From: SAR202 cluster bacterium
GTDB lineage: Bacteria > Chloroflexota > Dehalococcoidia > Lucifugimonadales > UBA2962
DNA length: 64,000 nucleotides
Assembly (NCBI GenBank): GCA_009392275.1
Contig: VFGV01000003.1
Coordinates: 1 to 64,000 of the forward strand
Direction: 5' to 3'
The position numbers were made by a program, and so were the translations under genes. Positions 11,957 to 46,700 of the stretch are shown here, piece by piece (the stretch's first letter is position 1; every line of letters starts with the position of its first letter). The notes under the pieces were generated by a model. The model saw only the letters and a list, made by a program, of their open reading frames with translations. It did no database searches and had not been told where the DNA came from.

Positions 11957-12068
11957 ATATTGAGTTACATTCTACAGTAAAGCGGTAACCTACTGATAAT
12001 AAAACACAAGGAATTATAAAATTCTTTCAAGCATTAAACCATTATTAACTACTGCTCATAAAAAAAGA

Positions 12069-13478
12069 GTGCTAATAACTGTATCGTTTGGTTACATGTT
12101 GGTACAACTTTCAAGCTTACCTATAGCTATAGCAATTCCTACTTTAGCATCACAATTTAATGTCGGTGTCGAAGATGTAGCATTAATGGTCGTTGCTTAT
12201 CTGACAGCATTAGGAAGTTTTGTTTTGCTCTCCGCCCGTATAGGCGACTATATAGGCCACAATAAAGTGTTTATGTTTGGGTTAATAACATTAACCGTAG
12301 CCTCAGGGGTTATTTGCACCGCAACAGATCTATGGCAAATAATTGGTTACAGGGCAGTGGCTGGCTTAGGCTCAGCTATGATTATGGGTAACGCAAATGC
12401 TATGGTTGCAGCTTCATTTAACCCAGATGAAAGAGGCAGAGCTTTCGGGTTTTTAATAATAGGAGCTAGGTTTGGAACATTCATAGGATTGGCTTTATTT
12501 GGACTAATGTTGCAATTTATTGGCTGGAGGCCAGTCTTTGCAACGTTTATTCCCCTCGGAATCATTGCAGTATGGCTAGCATTCAATTTAATCAAGTCAG
12601 ACTCTGAATCTAATAAATCTTTGAATATTACAAAGCTCGGGAAATCTATTGATTGGACAGGAGCTCTATTCCTCGCCAGCGGAGCCATAGTACTAATTCT
12701 TGGCGGAAATCATCTCCACCAAGGCGAGGAGTCTTTTACCAGTGCAGACGGACTTACTTATCACGTTCCTATGCATATTGCGGGTCTTCTTTTAATAGTT
12801 GTTTTCGTTTTTGTGGAAAAATTTGCTAGAAACCCTGTAATTGATTTAAGTCACTTCAGAAATAGTGCTTTTTCTTTGTCTTTGATAACCAACACTATTT
12901 ATCATTTTTCAATGCTAGGAGCTTTCACCCTAATTCCCATTTTAGTTGAGCAAGGTTTTGGACGATCCCCTTTATGGGTCACAGTCGTTTTACTGCCTAG
13001 TCAGGCTCTAGGCCTATTTCTCCCCGTAATTGCCGGGGCAATTTATGACAAATATAAGCCAGATTGGCTCCGCCCTATAACTCTAATAGCCATAGCAATC
13101 GGATTTCTAACGATCGGGTTAGTAGCTAACCAAATACCTTTTTGGGCTCTACCACTTCTAATGTTTATCATCTCAATCGGGACTAACATGTTTAACCCTA
13201 TAAATAATGCCACAGTGATGAATTCATTAACCTTAGAGCACCGTGGAGTTGCATCTGGCATGCTTGAAACAACAAGAGAGCTGGGTCATGCATTGGGTGC
13301 TACTGCAGCTGCAGCAACTCTTGCTTTAATGCTTCCACAGAAGCTAGGCTTTATGACTCAAGAAATAATACAAAGCTCTTACATTGATGGATTTCAACTC
13401 GCTGCATTAATGGTTGCTGGAGTATTGGTGTTTGGTTCGCTCATAGCCAGCCTCCATCCAAGAACTAAAGTCACTTAA
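12069..13478 (+). CDS. MFS transporter, DHA2 (14-helix) drug-efflux type
   Basis: Major facilitator permease of the DHA2 drug:H+ antiporter type with about 14 membrane helices. The motif ARIGDYIGHNKVFMFG is a motif-A variant, and GYRAVAGLGSAMIMGNANAMVAASF and ALGATAAAA are typical. The GTG at 12069 has no Shine-Dalgarno and begins inside helix 1. The frame stays open upstream to 12003, and AAGGAA (12008-12013) stands 7 nt before an in-frame ATT at 12021. That start would add 16 residues including a basic KKR before helix 1, as is usual in this family. Substrate unknown. Confidence 0.85.
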   Translation: MLITVSFGYMLVQLSSLPIAIAIPTLASQFNVGVEDVALMVVAYLTALGSFVLLSARIGDYIGHNKVFMFGLITLTVASGVICTATDLWQIIGYRAVAGLGSAMIMGNANAMVAASFNPDERGRAFGFLIIGARFGTFIGLALFGLMLQFIGWRPVFATFIPLGIIAVWLAFNLIKSDSESNKSLNITKLGKSIDWTGALFLASGAIVLILGGNHLHQGEESFTSADGLTYHVPMHIAGLLLIVVFVFVEKFARNPVIDLSHFRNSAFSLSLITNTIYHFSMLGAFTLIPILVEQGFGRSPLWVTVVLLPSQALGLFLPVIAGAIYDKYKPDWLRPITLIAIAIGFLTIGLVANQIPFWALPLLMFIISIGTNMFNPINNATVMNSLTLEHRGVASGMLETTRELGHALGATAAAATLALMLPQKLGFMTQEIIQSSYIDGFQLAALMVAGVLVFGSLIASLHPRTKVT

Positions 13479-18872: not shown

Positions 18873-19948
18873 TGGATTAGATTTATTCTCCAGGAGAATA
18901 AATCTCTATTAAGTTAGACATTTCACGCCTATCAGCGTCTTCTGTTTCTGCTTGACCACCTATAACCATCACATTACCATCGTTCATTTTTACGGATGTG
19001 TGTTGATGACGCCCGAAAGTAAGGGAAGGACCGATCGACCATTGCCCTGATTCAATATCGTACACTTCAGTCTCTGCTAACGTATTTGATCCGCCTATAA
19101 CGATCAACGTGCCATTATCTAATAGATGAGCTGTATGAAGTTGCCTGCCCATCGACAACTCGCCTGTCAAAGTCCATGTATCTGCCGATGGATCATAAAT
19201 TTCAGCACTAGCTAAAGGACCCATTCCTCCAACAACTAACACCCGGCCGTCCTCGAGTAAATTGGCTGTGTGAGATGCTCTTGCGGTGTTCATAGGTGAT
19301 ACAAGAGTCCATTCACCTGTAGCCTGATCCCATATTTCAGCAGATGTTCGATTCAGTTCTGCTGAATCGGTATCTTGTGTATTTTTGGAGGACCCGCCGG
19401 CAGCAAGCACCTTACCATCAGATAAAACGGTCAAAGTAAATAACGCTCTAGATTCGTTCATTTCTCCAGTGAGAGTAAATTCATCCAGTGATGGACCGGA
19501 TATTTCAACTGTAGCTACGACGCCTATATCCGCACCACCAGCAACGATAACCGTTCCGTCATTCAGGGTAGCGCATGAATGCTTATATCGTTTCTTTTTC
19601 ATTTTTGGACCTTTGATCCACTCTCCACTAGATGAATCTAAGATTTCTGTTGTTTTCAGGTTAACTCTGCGTTCATCTGCACCACCAATTATCATAGCCC
19701 TACCGTCTGCTAAAGTTACTCCACAATGAATTTCACGTTTTGAAGACATTTCATTAACAGATTTCCATTCACCTGTAGCTACTTCAAATACCTCTGCAGT
19801 AGCTAATCTCGGCGGTCTTATAGTTGCCCCTCTACCACGTCCTCCAGCAGAAACAACATCTCCATTACCTAGTACCAAGCTTACAAAATCCATCCTTGCA
19901 TCAGTCATGTTTGCTCCATCACTGAAAGAGCCTAAATCTCTATCTGAT
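18873..19948. repeat. kelch tandem duplication, copy A
   Basis: This 1076-nt block repeats at 20064-21139 with a fixed offset of 1191 nt. The only differences noticed are two substitutions near 18893-18901 (one changes Pro to Ser in the C-terminal YSPGE/YSSGE). It covers all kelch blades of the gene at 18883. Identity this high points to a very recent duplication, gene conversion or an assembly effect. Confidence 0.9.
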
Positions 19949-20049
19949 TGATCCACGGCTTGGGTTTCAGTTTCTTGACTTTCATTAGAACAAACAACTG
20001 TACTTATGATTAGAAGACCTAGAAAAAGTACTTTTAGCATTGTTTTCAT
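18883..20049 (-). CDS. seven-bladed kelch-repeat lipoprotein-like protein, copy A
   Basis: Exported 388-aa beta-propeller. The hydrophobic signal (residues 4-19) ends at Cys20 in STVVCSNES, a poor lipobox (Val at -1) but in the right place. Seven kelch blades follow, with turns such as DGRAMIIGG, DGTVIVAGG, DGKVLAAGG, DGRVLVVGG, NGTLIVIGG and DGNVMVIGG. AAGGAAGG is 6 nt before ATG. It is the downstream gene of a tandem pair, 24 nt after copy B. From the linker onward it is identical to copy B except the penultimate-but-one residue. The linker is shorter (TQAVDQSDRD). Role: probably a surface binding scaffold. Confidence 0.85.
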   Translation of the reverse strand: MKTMLKVLFLGLLIISTVVCSNESQETETQAVDQSDRDLGSFSDGANMTDARMDFVSLVLGNGDVVSAGGRGRGATIRPPRLATAEVFEVATGEWKSVNEMSSKREIHCGVTLADGRAMIIGGADERRVNLKTTEILDSSSGEWIKGPKMKKKRYKHSCATLNDGTVIVAGGADIGVVATVEISGPSLDEFTLTGEMNESRALFTLTVLSDGKVLAAGGSSKNTQDTDSAELNRTSAEIWDQATGEWTLVSPMNTARASHTANLLEDGRVLVVGGMGPLASAEIYDPSADTWTLTGELSMGRQLHTAHLLDNGTLIVIGGSNTLAETEVYDIESGQWSIGPSLTFGRHQHTSVKMNDGNVMVIGGQAETEDADRREMSNLIEIYSPGE

Positions 20050-20063
20050 CTTGTGCCTTCCTT

Positions 20064-21139
20064 TGGATTAGATTTATTCTCCAGAAGAATATATCTCTAT
20101 TAAGTTAGACATTTCACGCCTATCAGCGTCTTCTGTTTCTGCTTGACCACCTATAACCATCACATTACCATCGTTCATTTTTACGGATGTGTGTTGATGA
20201 CGCCCGAAAGTAAGGGAAGGACCGATCGACCATTGCCCTGATTCAATATCGTACACTTCAGTCTCTGCTAACGTATTTGATCCGCCTATAACGATCAACG
20301 TGCCATTATCTAATAGATGAGCTGTATGAAGTTGCCTGCCCATCGACAACTCGCCTGTCAAAGTCCATGTATCTGCCGATGGATCATAAATTTCAGCACT
20401 AGCTAAAGGACCCATTCCTCCAACAACTAACACCCGGCCGTCCTCGAGTAAATTGGCTGTGTGAGATGCTCTTGCGGTGTTCATAGGTGATACAAGAGTC
20501 CATTCACCTGTAGCCTGATCCCATATTTCAGCAGATGTTCGATTCAGTTCTGCTGAATCGGTATCTTGTGTATTTTTGGAGGACCCGCCGGCAGCAAGCA
20601 CCTTACCATCAGATAAAACGGTCAAAGTAAATAACGCTCTAGATTCGTTCATTTCTCCAGTGAGAGTAAATTCATCCAGTGATGGACCGGATATTTCAAC
20701 TGTAGCTACGACGCCTATATCCGCACCACCAGCAACGATAACCGTTCCGTCATTCAGGGTAGCGCATGAATGCTTATATCGTTTCTTTTTCATTTTTGGA
20801 CCTTTGATCCACTCTCCACTAGATGAATCTAAGATTTCTGTTGTTTTCAGGTTAACTCTGCGTTCATCTGCACCACCAATTATCATAGCCCTACCGTCTG
20901 CTAAAGTTACTCCACAATGAATTTCACGTTTTGAAGACATTTCATTAACAGATTTCCATTCACCTGTAGCTACTTCAAATACCTCTGCAGTAGCTAATCT
21001 CGGCGGTCTTATAGTTGCCCCTCTACCACGTCCTCCAGCAGAAACAACATCTCCATTACCTAGTACCAAGCTTACAAAATCCATCCTTGCATCAGTCATG
21101 TTTGCTCCATCACTGAAAGAGCCTAAATCTCTATCTGAT
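20064..21139. repeat. kelch tandem duplication, copy B
   Basis: Second copy of the 1076-nt block at 18873-19948. Identity ends abruptly at 21139/19948 inside the post-signal linker. Beyond that the two genes share similar but clearly diverged signal-peptide DNA, so homogenisation stopped at the linker. Confidence 0.9.
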
Positions 21140-21282
21140 GTATCTGCTTGGGCCTGAGACTGAGACGCATCTGAAGTGGATTCTGATTGATCCATGGTTT
21201 CAGTTTCTTGACTTTCATTAGAGCAAACAACTGTACTTATGATTAGAAGACCTAGAAAAAGTATTTTTAGTATTGTTTTCAT
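20074..21282 (-). CDS. seven-bladed kelch-repeat lipoprotein-like protein, copy B
   Basis: Upstream member of the kelch pair, 402 aa from the preferred start. The first ATG (21291) abuts AAGGA, while the ATG at 21282 is 9 nt from it and gives MKTILKILFLGLL, matching the N-terminus of copy A. Signal peptide, Cys and seven blades are as in copy A. The linker carries about 16 extra residues rich in Ser/Gln/Ala/Asp (STSDASQSQAQADT). The linker is the only variable part, which suggests that the spacer to the membrane anchor may vary while the propeller is held constant. Confidence 0.85.
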   Translation of the reverse strand: MKTILKILFLGLLIISTVVCSNESQETETMDQSESTSDASQSQAQADTSDRDLGSFSDGANMTDARMDFVSLVLGNGDVVSAGGRGRGATIRPPRLATAEVFEVATGEWKSVNEMSSKREIHCGVTLADGRAMIIGGADERRVNLKTTEILDSSSGEWIKGPKMKKKRYKHSCATLNDGTVIVAGGADIGVVATVEISGPSLDEFTLTGEMNESRALFTLTVLSDGKVLAAGGSSKNTQDTDSAELNRTSAEIWDQATGEWTLVSPMNTARASHTANLLEDGRVLVVGGMGPLASAEIYDPSADTWTLTGELSMGRQLHTAHLLDNGTLIVIGGSNTLAETEVYDIESGQWSIGPSLTFGRHQHTSVKMNDGNVMVIGGQAETEDADRREMSNLIEIYSSGE

Positions 21283-21296
21283 ATTATGCATTCCTT

Positions 21297-21890: not shown

Positions 21891-21954
21891 TTAAAAAACT
21901 GAATATATAATATTAGACTTAGGTTAACCAAGCTTCATAAATAAGGAAATTTCA

Positions 21955-22866
21955 ATTAATACCGAAAAGTTTAGTGTAGTTTTAGGTGCTAGTGGATCAC
22001 TTGGCCTGTCGCTAGTATCTCATCTGGTAGAAAAAGGCGAAAAAGTAAGAGCTGTAACAAGAACACCTGCCTCATATTGGAATAATCCGGCAGAAATAGT
22101 TCTAGCAGACATATCAACTCTAAGCGGTGCTGAGAAAGCATGCAAAGATGCTTCAGTTGTGTATAACTGTGTTTTCCCGCCAGAAGTCGAGCATGTTATT
22201 AAAGCATGTCTTAACAACCGATCAAAACTAATATTGGCTGACTGTCTTTCAATCTATGACTGTGGCAGCGGGCCAATGAATGAAAATACCCCGTATTTAG
22301 TCAATAATCGAGAAACTGCAAAAAGACGTGTATTGCTTGAAAATCTCCTGATATCAACTCGGAAATCACATAATTTAAATTTTGTGATAGCTAGAGGCAG
22401 CGACATGTTCGGCCCAGGGGTGATTGTGTCCACTATGGGCTCTACCATTTTCAGAAATGCTCTTGCTGGACGTTCCTCCACTTTAATGGGCGACATAGAC
22501 TTGCCTCATACATATACATATAGTAAAGATTTCGCTTATGCAATGGAGCAATTGGGAACAAGTGATAAAGCAACTGGTGGTGTTTGGCACGTGCCAAGTG
22601 CACCAACCTTAACGACAAATCAATTTTTAGATTTAATATATACCCAGGCAGGAACGCTTAAAAAAGTTAGGCGTTTAGGAAAATCAACTTTGAATTTTAT
22701 GGGTATATTTAACCCTCAAATTCGAGCAGCAAAGCGAGAGAAATTGTACCAATTTGAAAAACCTTTTGTATCAGATCATTCAAAATTTTCGAAAACATTT
22801 ACAGAAAATATAACCCCGCATGAAATTGCGATCAAAGAGACATTAGATTGGTTTAGTAGTTATTAG
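21955..22866 (+). CDS. NAD-dependent epimerase/dehydratase-like protein with probable ATT start
   Basis: Extended-SDR protein of about 303 aa. The cofactor motif VVLGASGSLG is encoded at 21976-22005, well upstream of the first GTG (22159), so the gene must start earlier. No in-frame ATG, GTG or TTG exists between the stop at 21925 and 22159. AAGGAA (21943-21948) stands 6 nt before an in-frame ATT at 21955, giving (M)NTEKFSVVLGASG. Later parts (GSDMFGPGV, the HTYTYSKDFAYAM segment, GGVWHVPSAPTLTTNQFLDL) match NAD-dependent epimerases acting on nucleotide sugars or small metabolites. The usual YxxxK is not obvious, so activity is uncertain. Confidence 0.78.
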   Translation: MNTEKFSVVLGASGSLGLSLVSHLVEKGEKVRAVTRTPASYWNNPAEIVLADISTLSGAEKACKDASVVYNCVFPPEVEHVIKACLNNRSKLILADCLSIYDCGSGPMNENTPYLVNNRETAKRRVLLENLLISTRKSHNLNFVIARGSDMFGPGVIVSTMGSTIFRNALAGRSSTLMGDIDLPHTYTYSKDFAYAMEQLGTSDKATGGVWHVPSAPTLTTNQFLDLIYTQAGTLKKVRRLGKSTLNFMGIFNPQIRAAKREKLYQFEKPFVSDHSKFSKTFTENITPHEIAIKETLDWFSSY

Positions 22867-26627: not shown

Positions 26628-27623
26628 TTAGTGTTTATGCCCAAAAACAACTGTAGGGTTGAGTTTCTCGGCCACATTAACAAAGTCATTTAGCCTCGGT
26701 AATAGCAAGGGACTCTGAACCCCTGCATCAATATATTCGTTAATACGTTTTACACAGTGAGTCTGGTCGCCTATCACATAATATTGATCTACCATATCAT
26801 CAGTAATCATCTTATAAATTTCTGCCATATTTTGGTCGTAAACAAATTGCCTCAACTTAGATAGATATTCAGTAGAATTTAATTTACTTATTAGTAGTTC
26901 ACCGACAAACTTTTCACTTAGTATACGAGCTATTCGATATTTACATTCATTAATCAAAGAATCTGACACTTCGTCGGTTAGTCGTATAGGTAACATACAG
27001 GTTATATTAAATAATTTTGGATCCCTATCATTTTTATCTAAAGCAACGTTTATGATATCTAACGCGCGCCCTATATACGATATTGGCGAATAAGTATTCA
27101 GTATGACTCCATCTGCTTCCTTAGAAGCAAGTTTTATAGCTGTAGGCCCTATTGCAGCCATATAAATAGGCAATGAATTCTGAACAGGACTCACTGACAA
27201 ATTTATTGACTTCAAATCTTCTCTAATAACATGAGATTTAGATCTGAGCATCTCTCGAATCGCAATCATTCCATGGTTGAGTTTTAGTAATGAATTTTCG
27301 TAATCCAGTCCTAAAATACCAGTGATTAATCGTTTATCACTTCTGCCTAAACCTAAAATAAATCTGCCACCACTTAATCTATCTAAAGTTGCTGCTCCCA
27401 TGGCAATAAGGCTTGGAGATCTTGTAAACGGATTGATCACTCCCACACCCAAGTTAATATTATTGGTCGCAGCGGCCAAAAAACCTAGAAGTGAAAGTGT
27501 TTCCTCATGAAAATATCTCTCTGTTACCCACAACGAATTAAAACCAGACATTTCAGCAACACGTGCATATTTATTTAACTCAAAGCCTGACTGGATTCCA
27601 TGATGTAATACTAAACCTATCAG
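26628..27623 (-). CDS. LLM-class flavin-dependent oxidoreductase with probable CTG start
   Basis: Second luciferase-like oxidoreductase. The first conventional start (Met at 27551) would remove the first barrel strand. The frame upstream encodes IGLVLHHGIQSGFELNKYARVAEMSGF, a normal LLM N-terminus, but contains no ATG, GTG or TTG before the stop. A CTG at 27623-27621 overlaps the TGA of the preceding zinc-ribbon gene as CTGA, with GAGGA 6 nt upstream, so start by translational coupling is likely. This gives 331 aa, normal for the family. Motifs RLSGGRFILGLGRSD and LPIYMAAIGPTAIKLA are typical. Substrate and cofactor (FMN or F420) unknown. Confidence 0.85.
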   Translation of the reverse strand: MIGLVLHHGIQSGFELNKYARVAEMSGFNSLWVTERYFHEETLSLLGFLAAATNNINLGVGVINPFTRSPSLIAMGAATLDRLSGGRFILGLGRSDKRLITGILGLDYENSLLKLNHGMIAIREMLRSKSHVIREDLKSINLSVSPVQNSLPIYMAAIGPTAIKLASKEADGVILNTYSPISYIGRALDIINVALDKNDRDPKLFNITCMLPIRLTDEVSDSLINECKYRIARILSEKFVGELLISKLNSTEYLSKLRQFVYDQNMAEIYKMITDDMVDQYYVIGDQTHCVKRINEYIDAGVQSPLLLPRLNDFVNVAEKLNPTVVFGHKH

Positions 27624-27808
27624 TTTTCTTCCTCACAGTTTAAGTTTTTTAATAAATTATGTGCCCACTGCATATACAAATCATCTAAGTCACATCCGCA
27701 ATGCGGGCAGTCGATGTCACCAAACCTGATTCTAGTATCACAATCATTACAAAACTTAGATTCGCTGAAGAAGGCTAGTACTTTTGACATATTTGATTGA
27801 TTATTCAT
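27620..27808 (-). CDS. small zinc-ribbon protein
   Basis: A 62-aa protein with two CxxC knuckles, CNDC and CPHC (followed by Gly and another Cys), which together should bind one zinc. The acidic C-terminus ends CEEEN. Its last 4 nt overlap the following LLM gene (CTGA). No strong ribosome binding site is seen; a second Met at residue 7 could be the start. It resembles double-zinc-ribbon leaders in other bacteria, but the function is unknown. Confidence 0.72.
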   Translation of the reverse strand: MNNQSNMSKVLAFFSESKFCNDCDTRIRFGDIDCPHCGCDLDDLYMQWAHNLLKNLNCEEEN

Positions 27809-39944: not shown

Positions 39945-40697
39945 ATGAATTTAGATTTTGAGCGTGGAGAACCTCAGAAACCCAAAGGACACGCATTTAT
40001 ATACTTTACAGGTACGGAGTCTGATTCCACATATTTTGCAACCTACCTAATGGTGCAGCCAATAAATGTGGATGTTTCTAAATACGTACCACCTTTTTTA
40101 ATGAACCAAATGGGTGAATTAGAAAAAGATTTATCAGCTTTCGCATTTCCTCCTTCACCAGAACAGATTGATAGCTTAGATGACATAAAATATTTAGCCG
40201 AAATCAGAGAGGATGATTTAATTTACGGCGGAAAAATCCAAAGCAACGATCCAACGGCTGCGTTAATTAAAGTAAATGAAATTCTTGAGTGGTATTCAAG
40301 TGTTTACGAATCCAATAATAAACTCCTATCAAATAAAACGATCGACTCAGAAAATGGTACAAATGTTAACGAAGTTGTATATAGCCTAATGAATGATCGA
40401 GACAAGCTTGAAGAACTTACCAAGTTGATAGGTAAACTTCGATACGATGTTGATGTCACAGAAGAGAGACTATCTCAAGAAACTGAAGAACAAATTAAAC
40501 TGCTTTCGAAACATCTTCCAGAAAGTCACGAGATATCAAAAATAATATCAGCTGCAAAGGGAGCACAGAGCACTGATCACAAGCTGGCTGATCTATACCT
40601 TCAACGATCATTTCATTTAATAAACGAGGCTTTTGATGATTTAACTAATATCGACAGAGAAATTAAAAAGTTGGAGGAGATGGGCCCTGTCAACTAA
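39945..40697 (+). CDS. conserved hypothetical protein with C-terminal coiled coil
   Basis: A 250-aa soluble protein not matched to a known family. The first 130 residues appear globular (KGHAFIYFTG, ATYLMVQPINVDVSKYVPPF, SLDDIKYLAEIREDDLIYGG). The remaining part is a long charged helical region with heptad-like repeats (LMNDRDKLEELTKLIGKLRYDVDVTEERLSQETEEQ, and so on). No signal peptide or membrane helix. It is convergent with ribokinase, overlapping by 8 nt. Confidence 0.75.
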   Translation: MNLDFERGEPQKPKGHAFIYFTGTESDSTYFATYLMVQPINVDVSKYVPPFLMNQMGELEKDLSAFAFPPSPEQIDSLDDIKYLAEIREDDLIYGGKIQSNDPTAALIKVNEILEWYSSVYESNNKLLSNKTIDSENGTNVNEVVYSLMNDRDKLEELTKLIGKLRYDVDVTEERLSQETEEQIKLLSKHLPESHEISKIISAAKGAQSTDHKLADLYLQRSFHLINEAFDDLTNIDREIKKLEEMGPVN

Positions 40698-41640
40698 TTA
40701 AAGAGTCAACTTGAGACCTTGCAGGCATCGACATTTGTGCACCTGATTTAGACACAGCTAGCGAACCAGCCGCACAGCCCTTTTTAACTGCTTCACGTAA
40801 TGATAATTTTTCAGCAATTGACACGGTAAATGCCGCTCCAAACGCGTCTCCAGCAGCTACTGAATCTACAACATCTGTTGGTACAGAAGACACGAAACCA
40901 GATTCACCTGCGCTTTCATAATAAGCCCCTAGTTCTCCCATTTTGATCACTACTGTCGACACCCCTAACTTGAGCAAAATTGCAGATGCCTTTCTTGCTG
41001 AAACCTGATCTACAACTTTAATTCCAGTCAAAAATTCTGCTTCATTTTGATTGGGCATAATGACATCTGCAAACGGTATTATCTCTTTTATGTTATTGTC
41101 AGATGGAGCCGGGTCAAATATAACAGGAATTCCCAAAACATTGGCATCTTTAGCAACCTTTTTCGTTACTTTTAATGGCAACTCGTTTTGGATCATTAAC
41201 GCATCTACATCCGGCAAGCATTCTTGCGCAGCCTTGATTTCACAAGTGTCCGCCAACATATTTGCGCCCCTGACTTGAATTATGTAGTTTTGACCATTTT
41301 TATCTAATAGGATTATTGCTATTCCAGACTTTGCATCAGAATCTTTATAAACACATCTGACGTCAATCCCCTCTGCAAGCAGATTTGCAAGTAATTGTTC
41401 TCCATATTGATCGTCTCCAATACGGCCTATTAAAGATACTCTTGCTCCCATCCTCGATGCGCCAACTGCTTGGTTAGCTCCTTTGCCTCCTGGAGTTATA
41501 TTAAGATTATTTCCAGTAACTGTCTGGCCAGGCTCAGGTATTAAATCAGTTGATGTGATTAAATTAATATTAATCCCGCCCACAACCAATATTAACGGTG
41601 AGTATTCCAGTATTTCATGAACAGTTTCCACGTCAGCCAA
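40690..41640 (-). CDS. rbsK: ribokinase (PfkB family)
   Basis: PfkB-family sugar kinase of 316 aa, most like ribokinase. Signature regions are GGKGANQAVGASRMGARVSLIGRIG near the N-terminus and DSVAAGDAFGAAF near the C-terminus, with the catalytic Asp and anion hole. NPF-type variants with other sugars cannot be excluded. TTG start lies inside the HAD gene end (8-nt overlap), 4 nt after AAGGA, so translation is coupled. With rpiB elsewhere in the window it would feed ribose to the pentose phosphate pathway. Confidence 0.88.
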   Translation of the reverse strand: MADVETVHEILEYSPLILVVGGININLITSTDLIPEPGQTVTGNNLNITPGGKGANQAVGASRMGARVSLIGRIGDDQYGEQLLANLLAEGIDVRCVYKDSDAKSGIAIILLDKNGQNYIIQVRGANMLADTCEIKAAQECLPDVDALMIQNELPLKVTKKVAKDANVLGIPVIFDPAPSDNNIKEIIPFADVIMPNQNEAEFLTGIKVVDQVSARKASAILLKLGVSTVVIKMGELGAYYESAGESGFVSSVPTDVVDSVAAGDAFGAAFTVSIAEKLSLREAVKKGCAAGSLAVSKSGAQMSMPARSQVDSLIS

Positions 41641-44996: not shown

Positions 44997-46700
44997 ATGA
45001 CAGCAAAAAAGTTCCAGTTTAAAGAAAATGCGAGAAAGCAATTAGTTGAAGGTATAGATATAGTTGCAAAAACTGTAGGGATAACACTTGGTCCCGCCGG
45101 TAGAAACGTTGTCTTAGATAAGGGTTTTGGCCCACCAAGAGTTTATAGTGATGGGGTGTCCATTGCTCGCGAAATTGATTTACCTGACCCATTTCAAAAT
45201 ATGGGAGCACGACTCATACAAGATGCTGCACGCAAAACAAATGATATAGCTGGAGATGGCACTACCACCTCAACGGTTATAGCTCAAGCAATCGTCCATG
45301 AGGGATTTAAAAATGTCGCCGCTGGAGCCAACCCGATGGCTCTTAAATCTGGAATTCAGAGTGCAGTCAAAGAAATCAACAATCAACTCAGTGTTTTAGC
45401 AAAACCTGTCGAAGGTCGAGACCAGATGGCTCAAATCGCTAGCTTGTCTGCTCATGAAGATCAAATGGGAGAAATGATTGCCGATGTTATGGAGAAAATT
45501 GGACAAGATGGAATTGTCACAATTGAAGAAGGCAAGGGCACATCAGACGAAGTAGAGTACGTTGAAGGAATGCGAGTTGATAGAGGATATATCTCTCCTT
45601 ACTTAGTAACTAATCAAGAAACAATGAAAGCTGAGGTCGACAATCCTTTCATTCTGTTGACTTCAGAAAAAATATCCTCTGCCAATGAACTAGTTCCTGT
45701 TTTGGAAGCATTATCATCTAAGAGCAAAGATATTGTGATTATAGCTGAAGATATAGAGAAAGAGGCATTAGCAACTTTAGTAGTTAATAAACTCAGGGGA
45801 ACTATGAATTGCTTAGCCATAAAAGCTCCTGCATTTGGAGATCGCCGTAAAGCTATATTAGAAGACTTGGCAATCCTATTTGGTGCTAACCTAATTTCTA
45901 AAGAAACTGGCAGAGGTCTAGAATCTGCAACGATTGAGGATCTTGGGAGAGCACGAAAAGCGATTGCTTCAAAAGAAGATACAACCTTTGTTGAAGGAGC
46001 AGGAGATCCAAAATCTATTGAAACAAGAATCCAACAAATAAAACTTCAAGCAGAAGACACAACATCAGATTATGACAGAGAGAAATTAAATGAGAGGGCA
46101 GCAAAATTATCCGGTGGAGTTGCTGTAATTAACGTAGGGGCTGTCACTGAAATTGCACTAAAGGAAAGAAAACAACGAATGGAGGATGCTTTAGCAGCAA
46201 CCAAAGCAGCTTCTGAAGAAGGTATTATTGCTGGAGGTGGAGCTAGTTTGATCAGAGTTGCCTCAAAGGTTCTGAAGGCAAGTACCGCAATCGGAGATGA
46301 ACTAACGGGTTATAAAATCGTCGCACAAGCGGTCGAAGAACCCTTAAAACTAATGGTTGAAAATGCCGGACTAGCTGGTGACGTAGTTTTGTCGGCAGTC
46401 AAGAAAGGAAATAAAAACCATGGTTTTGACGCTGAAAATCAGACTTATGGAAACTTATATGAAATTGGCATTGTCGACCCTGTAAAAGTCACTAAAACAG
46501 CATTAGAAAATGCTTCTAGTGTGGCTGCAATGATTCTTACAACAGAATCTCTGATTTCAGAAGTACCTGAGCCCATGCCTCCTATGCCTGGTGGTATGCC
46601 TGGTGGTATGCCTGGTGGTATGCCTGGTGGTATGCCTGGTGGTATGCCTGGTGGTATGCCTGGTGGTATGCCTGGTGGTATGCCTGGTATGGGATTCTAA
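44997..46700 (+). CDS. groEL: chaperonin GroEL
   Basis: Group I chaperonin that folds proteins in a 14-mer cavity with GroES. 567 aa. The N-terminal [34 protein letters not shown], the ATP-site [23 protein letters not shown] and the GGASLIRVA region are typical. The C-terminal tail is an exceptionally regular run of eight MPGG units plus MPGMGF, coded by perfect 12-bp repeats. No groES lies nearby. GAGAGA precedes the ATG, and a dyad sits upstream. Confidence 0.98.
46584..46688 (+). repeat. 12-bp tandem repeat array in groEL tail
   Basis: Eight perfect consecutive copies of ATGCCTGGTGGT start at 46584 and end at 46679, followed by a ninth partial unit (ATGCCTGGT, 46680-46688). Each unit encodes Met-Pro-Gly-Gly. 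The absence of any silent change between copies implies recent expansion or active homogenisation. Unit length is a multiple of three, so slippage would change tail length without a frameshift. Confidence 0.97.

Follow-up and report, generated by a model that had tools for sequence, protein, structure and literature searches.

A conserved CTG codon overlapping an upstream stop codon as the probable start of an LLM oxidoreductase gene in SAR202-type Dehalococcoidia

Results

A zinc-ribbon gene and an LLM oxidoreductase gene meet at a CTGA overlap

The 64-kb stretch of DNA that we analyzed (the window) carries two adjacent genes on its minus strand. The upstream gene (27808-27620) encodes a small zinc-ribbon protein of 62 aa with a CxxC-x10-CxxC arrangement (C20, C23, C34, and C37), which was found in all five genomes of the genus. 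The downstream gene encodes an LLM (bacterial-luciferase-like) oxidoreductase, whose coding sequence, if read from a CTG codon, spans 26628-27623 and gives a protein of 331 aa. This protein matches the PF00296 profile with an E-value of 2.3e-49 (168.9 bits against a curated cut-off of 27.9). LLM (F420/FMN) oxidoreductases are described as numerous in SAR202 in passages of PMC5395668, and the protein shares its PF00296 membership with other LLM and bacterial luciferase-like oxidoreductases, differing from them only in its start codon.

The zinc-ribbon frame ends in GAG GAA GAA AAC TGA, with its stop codon at 27620-27622. The LLM frame is offset by -1 from it, with the sequence TGA GGA AGA AAA CTG ATA GGT TTA GTA TTA CAT CAT, so that the open frame (27632-26628) begins right after an in-frame TGA and passes through three sense codons before reaching CTG. 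Reading the minus strand bore out what had been proposed from the sequence of the window: a Shine-Dalgarno (SD)-like GAGGA (27634-27630), able to form a duplex with the 16S tail, is followed by a 6-nt spacer (27629-27624) and then by CTG (27623-27621), which shares bases with the zinc-ribbon TGA to form CTGA. As the preliminary description had also stated, the LLM frame of this genome holds no ATG, GTG, or TTG between the in-frame stop and the ATG at 27551-27549, which would be Met25 if CTG is codon 1.

The N-terminal strand of the protein had likewise been placed upstream of this first methionine, and the structural model agrees. In an AlphaFold2 model (mean pLDDT 86.2), strand 1 occupies residues 3-6 (block pLDDT 86) and helix 1 occupies residues 13-25. 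An alignment of 16 homologues shows G3, V5, L6, H8, G9, G13, L16, Y19, and E24 to be invariant, and the residues from CTG onward are conserved even in homologues at 46-51% identity.

The CTG codon and the overlap are conserved throughout the genus

We compared the window's genome (G000, a 1.53-Mb assembly) with the four other genomes of the genus (G001 to G004), all five being MAGs of SAR202-type Dehalococcoidia, which are uncultured bacteria of the deep sea. The zinc-ribbon gene, the LLM gene, and an identical CTGA overlap, including the TGA with the same base pattern, are present in all five, although the LLM orthologues have diverged to 85, 80, 74, and 66% identity with the window protein. 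Codon 1 is CTG in every genome, whereas codon 2 varies (ATA, ATT, ATC, ACC, and ACC). The SD-like duplexes before the aligned CTG are -5.6 kcal/mol in the window's own genome and -10.2, -5.9, -4.3, and -5.6 kcal/mol in the other genomes, the weakest belonging to G004; the 16S tail of G001 contains CCTCC.

No canonical codon offers a shared substitute. In none of the five genomes can ATG, GTG, or TTG supply the conserved N-terminus; a TTG at codon 6 in G003 and the ATG at codon 25 in G000 both fall within the conserved N-terminal part. In G001, an in-frame TGA stands two codons upstream of CTG, and the first ATG, GTG, or TTG of the open frame lies 58 codons in; therefore, a start upstream of the single intervening AAA codon is impossible there. 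Another in-frame CTG, located 15 nt earlier, was considered and rejected, since a stop intervenes in G000, G001, and G003 and the frame stays open only in G002 and G004. CTG at 27623-27621 is thus the sole start-like codon that the five orthologues share in this region.

Translation from Met25 would leave the conserved upstream residues untranslated, and we regard it as highly improbable. It has in its favor that this ATG is the first of the LLM frame in the window's genome. The aligned codon in the other four genomes, however, is AAA, AAA, AAA, and GGC, and protein-level conservation extends over the codons before it even in the homologues at 46-51% identity. In the AlphaFold2 model, a start at Met25 would delete strand 1 and most of helix 1. 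Differences from G000 before Met25 also fall mostly in third positions, with counts at first, second, and third codon positions of 6/2/8 in G001 (25 codons), 4/3/8 in G002 (27 codons), and 6/4/10 in G004 (26 codons), so that this region, judged by its substitutions, is evolving as coding sequence. As such, the possibility that homologues would consistently start at the methionine at 27551 did not materialize. The alternation of CTG with ATG, GTG, or TTG that relatives might have displayed was not found within the genus either.

The motif itself is common by chance. Counting both strands, the window has 38 sites at which CTGA is preceded at 4-9 nt by an SD-like tetramer, compared with about 25 in Markov-resampled sequence, and about 10-15% of internal CTG codons (n = 306; cut-offs of -5.6 and -4.3 kcal/mol) have equally strong SD-like pairing, with 15% reaching -4.3. 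Because the motif is this abundant, its bare presence proves nothing alone. What stands above chance, on the comparative evidence, is the protein-level conservation upstream of Met25 together with the identical junction in all five genomes.

CTG very probably serves as a start codon at a putatively coupled junction

We conclude that CTG at 27623-27621 is very probably the genuine start of the LLM gene in this genus, presumably used through termination-reinitiation at the overlap with the aid of the SD-like sequence. The reading of CTG as the LLM start, as originally put forward, is thus upheld by its being the only start-like codon common to the five N-termini and by the overlap kept in each of them. 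The junction also has the layout of the familiar ATGA coupling, as had been suggested, with a 4-nt stop/start overlap on one strand. Among the genes that we surveyed, six junctions have an NTGA in frame (four ATGA, one GTGA, and one CTGA).

In the proposed mechanism, ribosomes that finish the zinc-ribbon frame at TGA would be held by the GAGG-type SD inside the end of that frame, and the initiator tRNA would pair with the overlapping CUG. The protein would then begin fMet-Ile/Thr-Gly-Ile/Leu-Val-Leu-His-His-Gly, with formylmethionine inserted at CUG by reinitiation instead of de novo initiation. Restart by a ribosome already on the junction would be the simplest way for CUG to serve, and it is plausible that coupling is the reason why CTG suffices. 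Output from CTG is predicted to be weak and probably IF3-sensitive, and low, IF3-sensitive output might keep the LLM enzyme below the zinc-ribbon protein.

The same codon might instead be used through ordinary SD-driven initiation, uncoupled from the upstream gene, with the TGA overlap an incidental result of compaction. We consider this unlikely. The SD-like sequence in all five genomes would accommodate such initiation, and the putative starts of the genus's infC (ATA), epimerase (ATT), and MFS (ATT) genes are preceded by SDs without forming NTGA overlaps. Nevertheless, the overlap is kept exactly in all five genomes, and the -4-nt NTGA overlap is described, in passages of PMC12548453 and PMC6728339, as the commonest layout of close-set genes and as one of the known coupled layouts.

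Two further explanations would alter the decoding of the junction itself. Under the first of these, a programmed -1 frameshift at AAAAC before TGA would yield a zinc-ribbon/LLM fusion in which CTG is an ordinary Leu codon. The LLM frame does lie at -1, and A AAA AAC directly precedes TGA in G002 and G004. The slippery heptamer X XXY YYZ is present only in these two of the five genomes, however, the others reading A GAA AAC (G000), T GAA AAC (G001), and A AGA AAC (G003). The SD-like sequence abuts the would-be slip site, unlike the dnaX frameshift, in which the SD lies about 10 nt before it. In addition, none of 15 folds around or after the stop had z < -1.6 and no consistent structure emerged (single-sequence, pseudoknot-free folding against mononucleotide shuffles), and the zinc-ribbon and LLM genes each stand alone elsewhere; altogether, a frameshift appears very unlikely. 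Slippage of RNA polymerase at the A run was also set aside, as this run is just 3-4 A long before CTG in G000, G001, and G003. The remaining possibility, that the zinc-ribbon TGA is read as selenocysteine rather than as a plain stop, merits almost no credence. Although selB scores above the cut-off in all five genomes and a DsbA-like gene of the genus has an in-frame TGA at a redox motif, read-through here would add selenocysteine and 0-2 unconserved residues before TAG, and the LLM frame would stay unchanged.

The two genes are separate outside the genus

Matches to the zinc-ribbon family occur in 70 of the 247 genomes of the order, mostly as short open frames, apart from a few weak matches that fall within longer frames; this distribution indicates that the zinc-ribbon gene is an independent gene. 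Three loci that were read (L116-L118) show it as a small gene standing alone, and no LLM gene lies directly behind it. In six genomes from other genera of the order that have the LLM gene, the zinc-ribbon gene is located elsewhere in four, e.g., about 159 kb away in G009. Conversely, no zinc-ribbon frame was found upstream of the LLM homologues in 31 loci examined (some of which are duplicates of one contig; L006 and L063, of 33 loci, were left out owing to their orientation); CxxC-containing frames in five of these 31 (L044, L048, L049, L058, and L060) were judged by eye to be spurious.

With duplicates of one contig removed, 28 distinct homologous loci outside the genus were compared for their starts. 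In 24 of these, the LLM homologue has a canonical start two codons upstream of the CTG position (21 ATG, 1 GTG, and 2 TTG), while the other four (L035-L038) have no canonical start two codons before it. Since the genes are separate elsewhere, they appear as two independent genes joined in this genus. After the joining, the downstream LLM start would have become the CTG formed by the end of the upstream open frame, a history that we infer from these comparisons.

CTG is retained where a synonymous change would give TTG

TTG is a far better start codon than CTG. The zinc-ribbon frame closes with AAC (Asn), whose third base directly precedes TGA, and the synonymous AAT would turn the start into TTG. 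Despite this synonymous route, AAC is kept in all five genomes, and CTG never swaps with TTG. Among the conserved two-fold C/T codons of the zinc-ribbon and LLM genes, 2 of 51 are invariant C, both of them AAC before TG (zinc-ribbon codons 57 and 62). Across 19 five-species gene groups, the corresponding counts were 54 of 894 for all such codons and 9 of 166 for those encoding Asn. Against this background, the AAC invariance is unusual at about the 5% level, which is suggestive of selection at the last zinc-ribbon codon but falls short of proof.

Relation to known coupling and near-cognate starts

CTG is very rarely annotated as a start in bacteria, yet five species keep one within a stop overlap and a single synonymous change away from TTG. 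As cited in PMC11497404, CUG accounts for 0.024% of bacterial starts and gives 0.86% of AUG output, and in the mycobacterial start-codon library reported in passages of PMC4633059, CTG was not enriched, whereas ATT was. We found no CTG start paired with a stop overlap in bacteria among open-licence PMC papers. The junction resembles the NTGA termination-reinitiation coupling treated in parts of PMC6728339 and PMC12548453 in its 4-nt overlap, in the SD inside the upstream frame, and in the shared strand; it differs in that the restart codon is CTG here and ATG, GTG, or TTG there. It offers a clean natural setting in which to ask if restarting at CUG is easier for a ribosome that has just terminated than initiation there is for a free 30S subunit.

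Further parallels come from near-cognate starts controlled by IF3. Passages of PMC5472188 describe AUU/AUC start codons of infC with IF3 autoregulation in E. coli and Streptomyces, and IF3 repression of near-cognate starts both at infC itself and at the GTC start of Streptomyces sigR. Since IF3 is the factor known to repress such starts, the natural hypothesis would be that it also controls the LLM gene. The LLM start is like that of infC in combining a near-cognate codon with an SD and in being conserved among relatives, and the genus's own infC apparently starts at ATA. It differs from infC in being CTG rather than ATN and in overlapping a stop codon, and any IF3 response here would be hypothetical. 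With sigR (PMC5472188, in part), it shares a genus-conserved rare start in a two-gene unit that is missed by ORF callers restricted to ATG, GTG, and TTG; in the sigR unit it is the upstream gene that carries the rare start, whereas here it is the downstream gene, with the codon inside the coupling overlap. In the window's genome, gene callers limited in this way would drop the first 24 residues of the LLM protein, and in some relatives the start would be placed further downstream still.

An initiator tRNA was found in G000 and G001, with the ordinary GGG/CCC anticodon stem, and infC was found in four of the five genomes, which are incomplete. Therefore, the genus shows no sign of having generally lost start-codon discrimination.

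Other candidate near-cognate starts in the genus

We surveyed start codons in the window (41 gene groups) and in about 133 kb of the G000 contig C22, the infC block (115 groups), judging the groups by eye; given this coverage, we claim no genome-wide rate. An earliest, pairwise version of the survey had over-flagged genes because G001 is very close. The group survey flagged 7 of the 41 window groups and 14 of the 115 infC-block groups. Most of these 21 were dropped as N-run assembly gaps, antisense frames, paralogue misalignments, block-edge genes, or starts differing in position. The LLM gene, an epimerase gene, infC, prfB (frameshift), and a DsbA-like gene with an in-frame TGA were kept. As the survey also flagged prfB and the DsbA-like gene, the method finds real recoding.

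The infC gene (L074, G000:C22:151324-151833; also L073, L075, and L076) appears to start at ATA, a further near-cognate example for infC, with AAGGAG upstream. The ATA column is common to the three block genomes, with SD duplexes of -7.4 to -8.5, and it is aligned in G001 too. In G003, AAGGAG is followed after 7 nt by ATA GCT AAA, and no canonical codon is present there. The epimerase/NAD-binding gene (21928-22866, plus strand) has a likely ATT start at 21955-21957, with AAGGA 7-8 nt upstream in all four genomes in which the gene was detected (G000, G001, G002, and G004). No canonical start is shared for more than 100 codons, within which the NAD-binding Rossmann motif is encoded. G000, G001, and G002 do not differ at all in the start region or the first codons, which points to recent exchange or strong constraint, and the count of four includes these three near-identical copies. 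An MFS transporter gene (PF07690; 12003-13478, plus strand), which came from the pairwise comparisons and was unflagged in the group survey, has a possible ATT start at 12021-12023, again with AAGGA 7-8 nt upstream in all four genomes in which this gene was detected. Coding-like conservation extends upstream of a GTG at 12069; a GTG/ATG column exists at this position as well, so that the ATT is perhaps a start and the case is ambiguous.

With infC at ATA and the epimerase at ATT, this genus would be worth a start-codon survey. More speculatively, the near-cognate set (CTG in the LLM gene, ATT in the epimerase gene and perhaps the MFS gene, and ATA in infC) might be tuned by IF3, with CTG actively kept over TTG to hold a low, coupling-dependent ratio of LLM to zinc-ribbon protein; we put this forward tentatively and hold it to be rather doubtful.

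Several other genes deserve mention. In prfB (L096:5374-6414, minus strand, G000:C22; TIGR00020), the conserved N-terminal part of the main open frame has no canonical start ahead of it. A +1 frameshift is usual for RF2, and this pattern is as expected for it, the frameshift itself being predicted. The DsbA-like gene (L098:5931-6548, minus strand, G000:C22), which matches PF01323 when TGA is read as U, has the motif YI-U-PFAYNAA in all three genomes examined and, with selB above the cut-off in five of five genomes, probably encodes a selenoprotein. In a ribokinase-like gene of the window (40690-41640, minus strand), the N-terminal column reads GTG, GTG, ATG, ATG, and, in G003, ATA, which could be a near-cognate start peculiar to that species, although the gene has other starts available. 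Two adjacent, nearly identical Kelch-like frames (18883-20049 and 20074-21291; together 18883-21291, minus strand) represent either a recent tandem duplication or an assembly duplication. Finally, at 46591-46700 (plus strand), the GGMP repeat tail that closes a GroEL-like frame runs into the ABC-transporter frame that follows.
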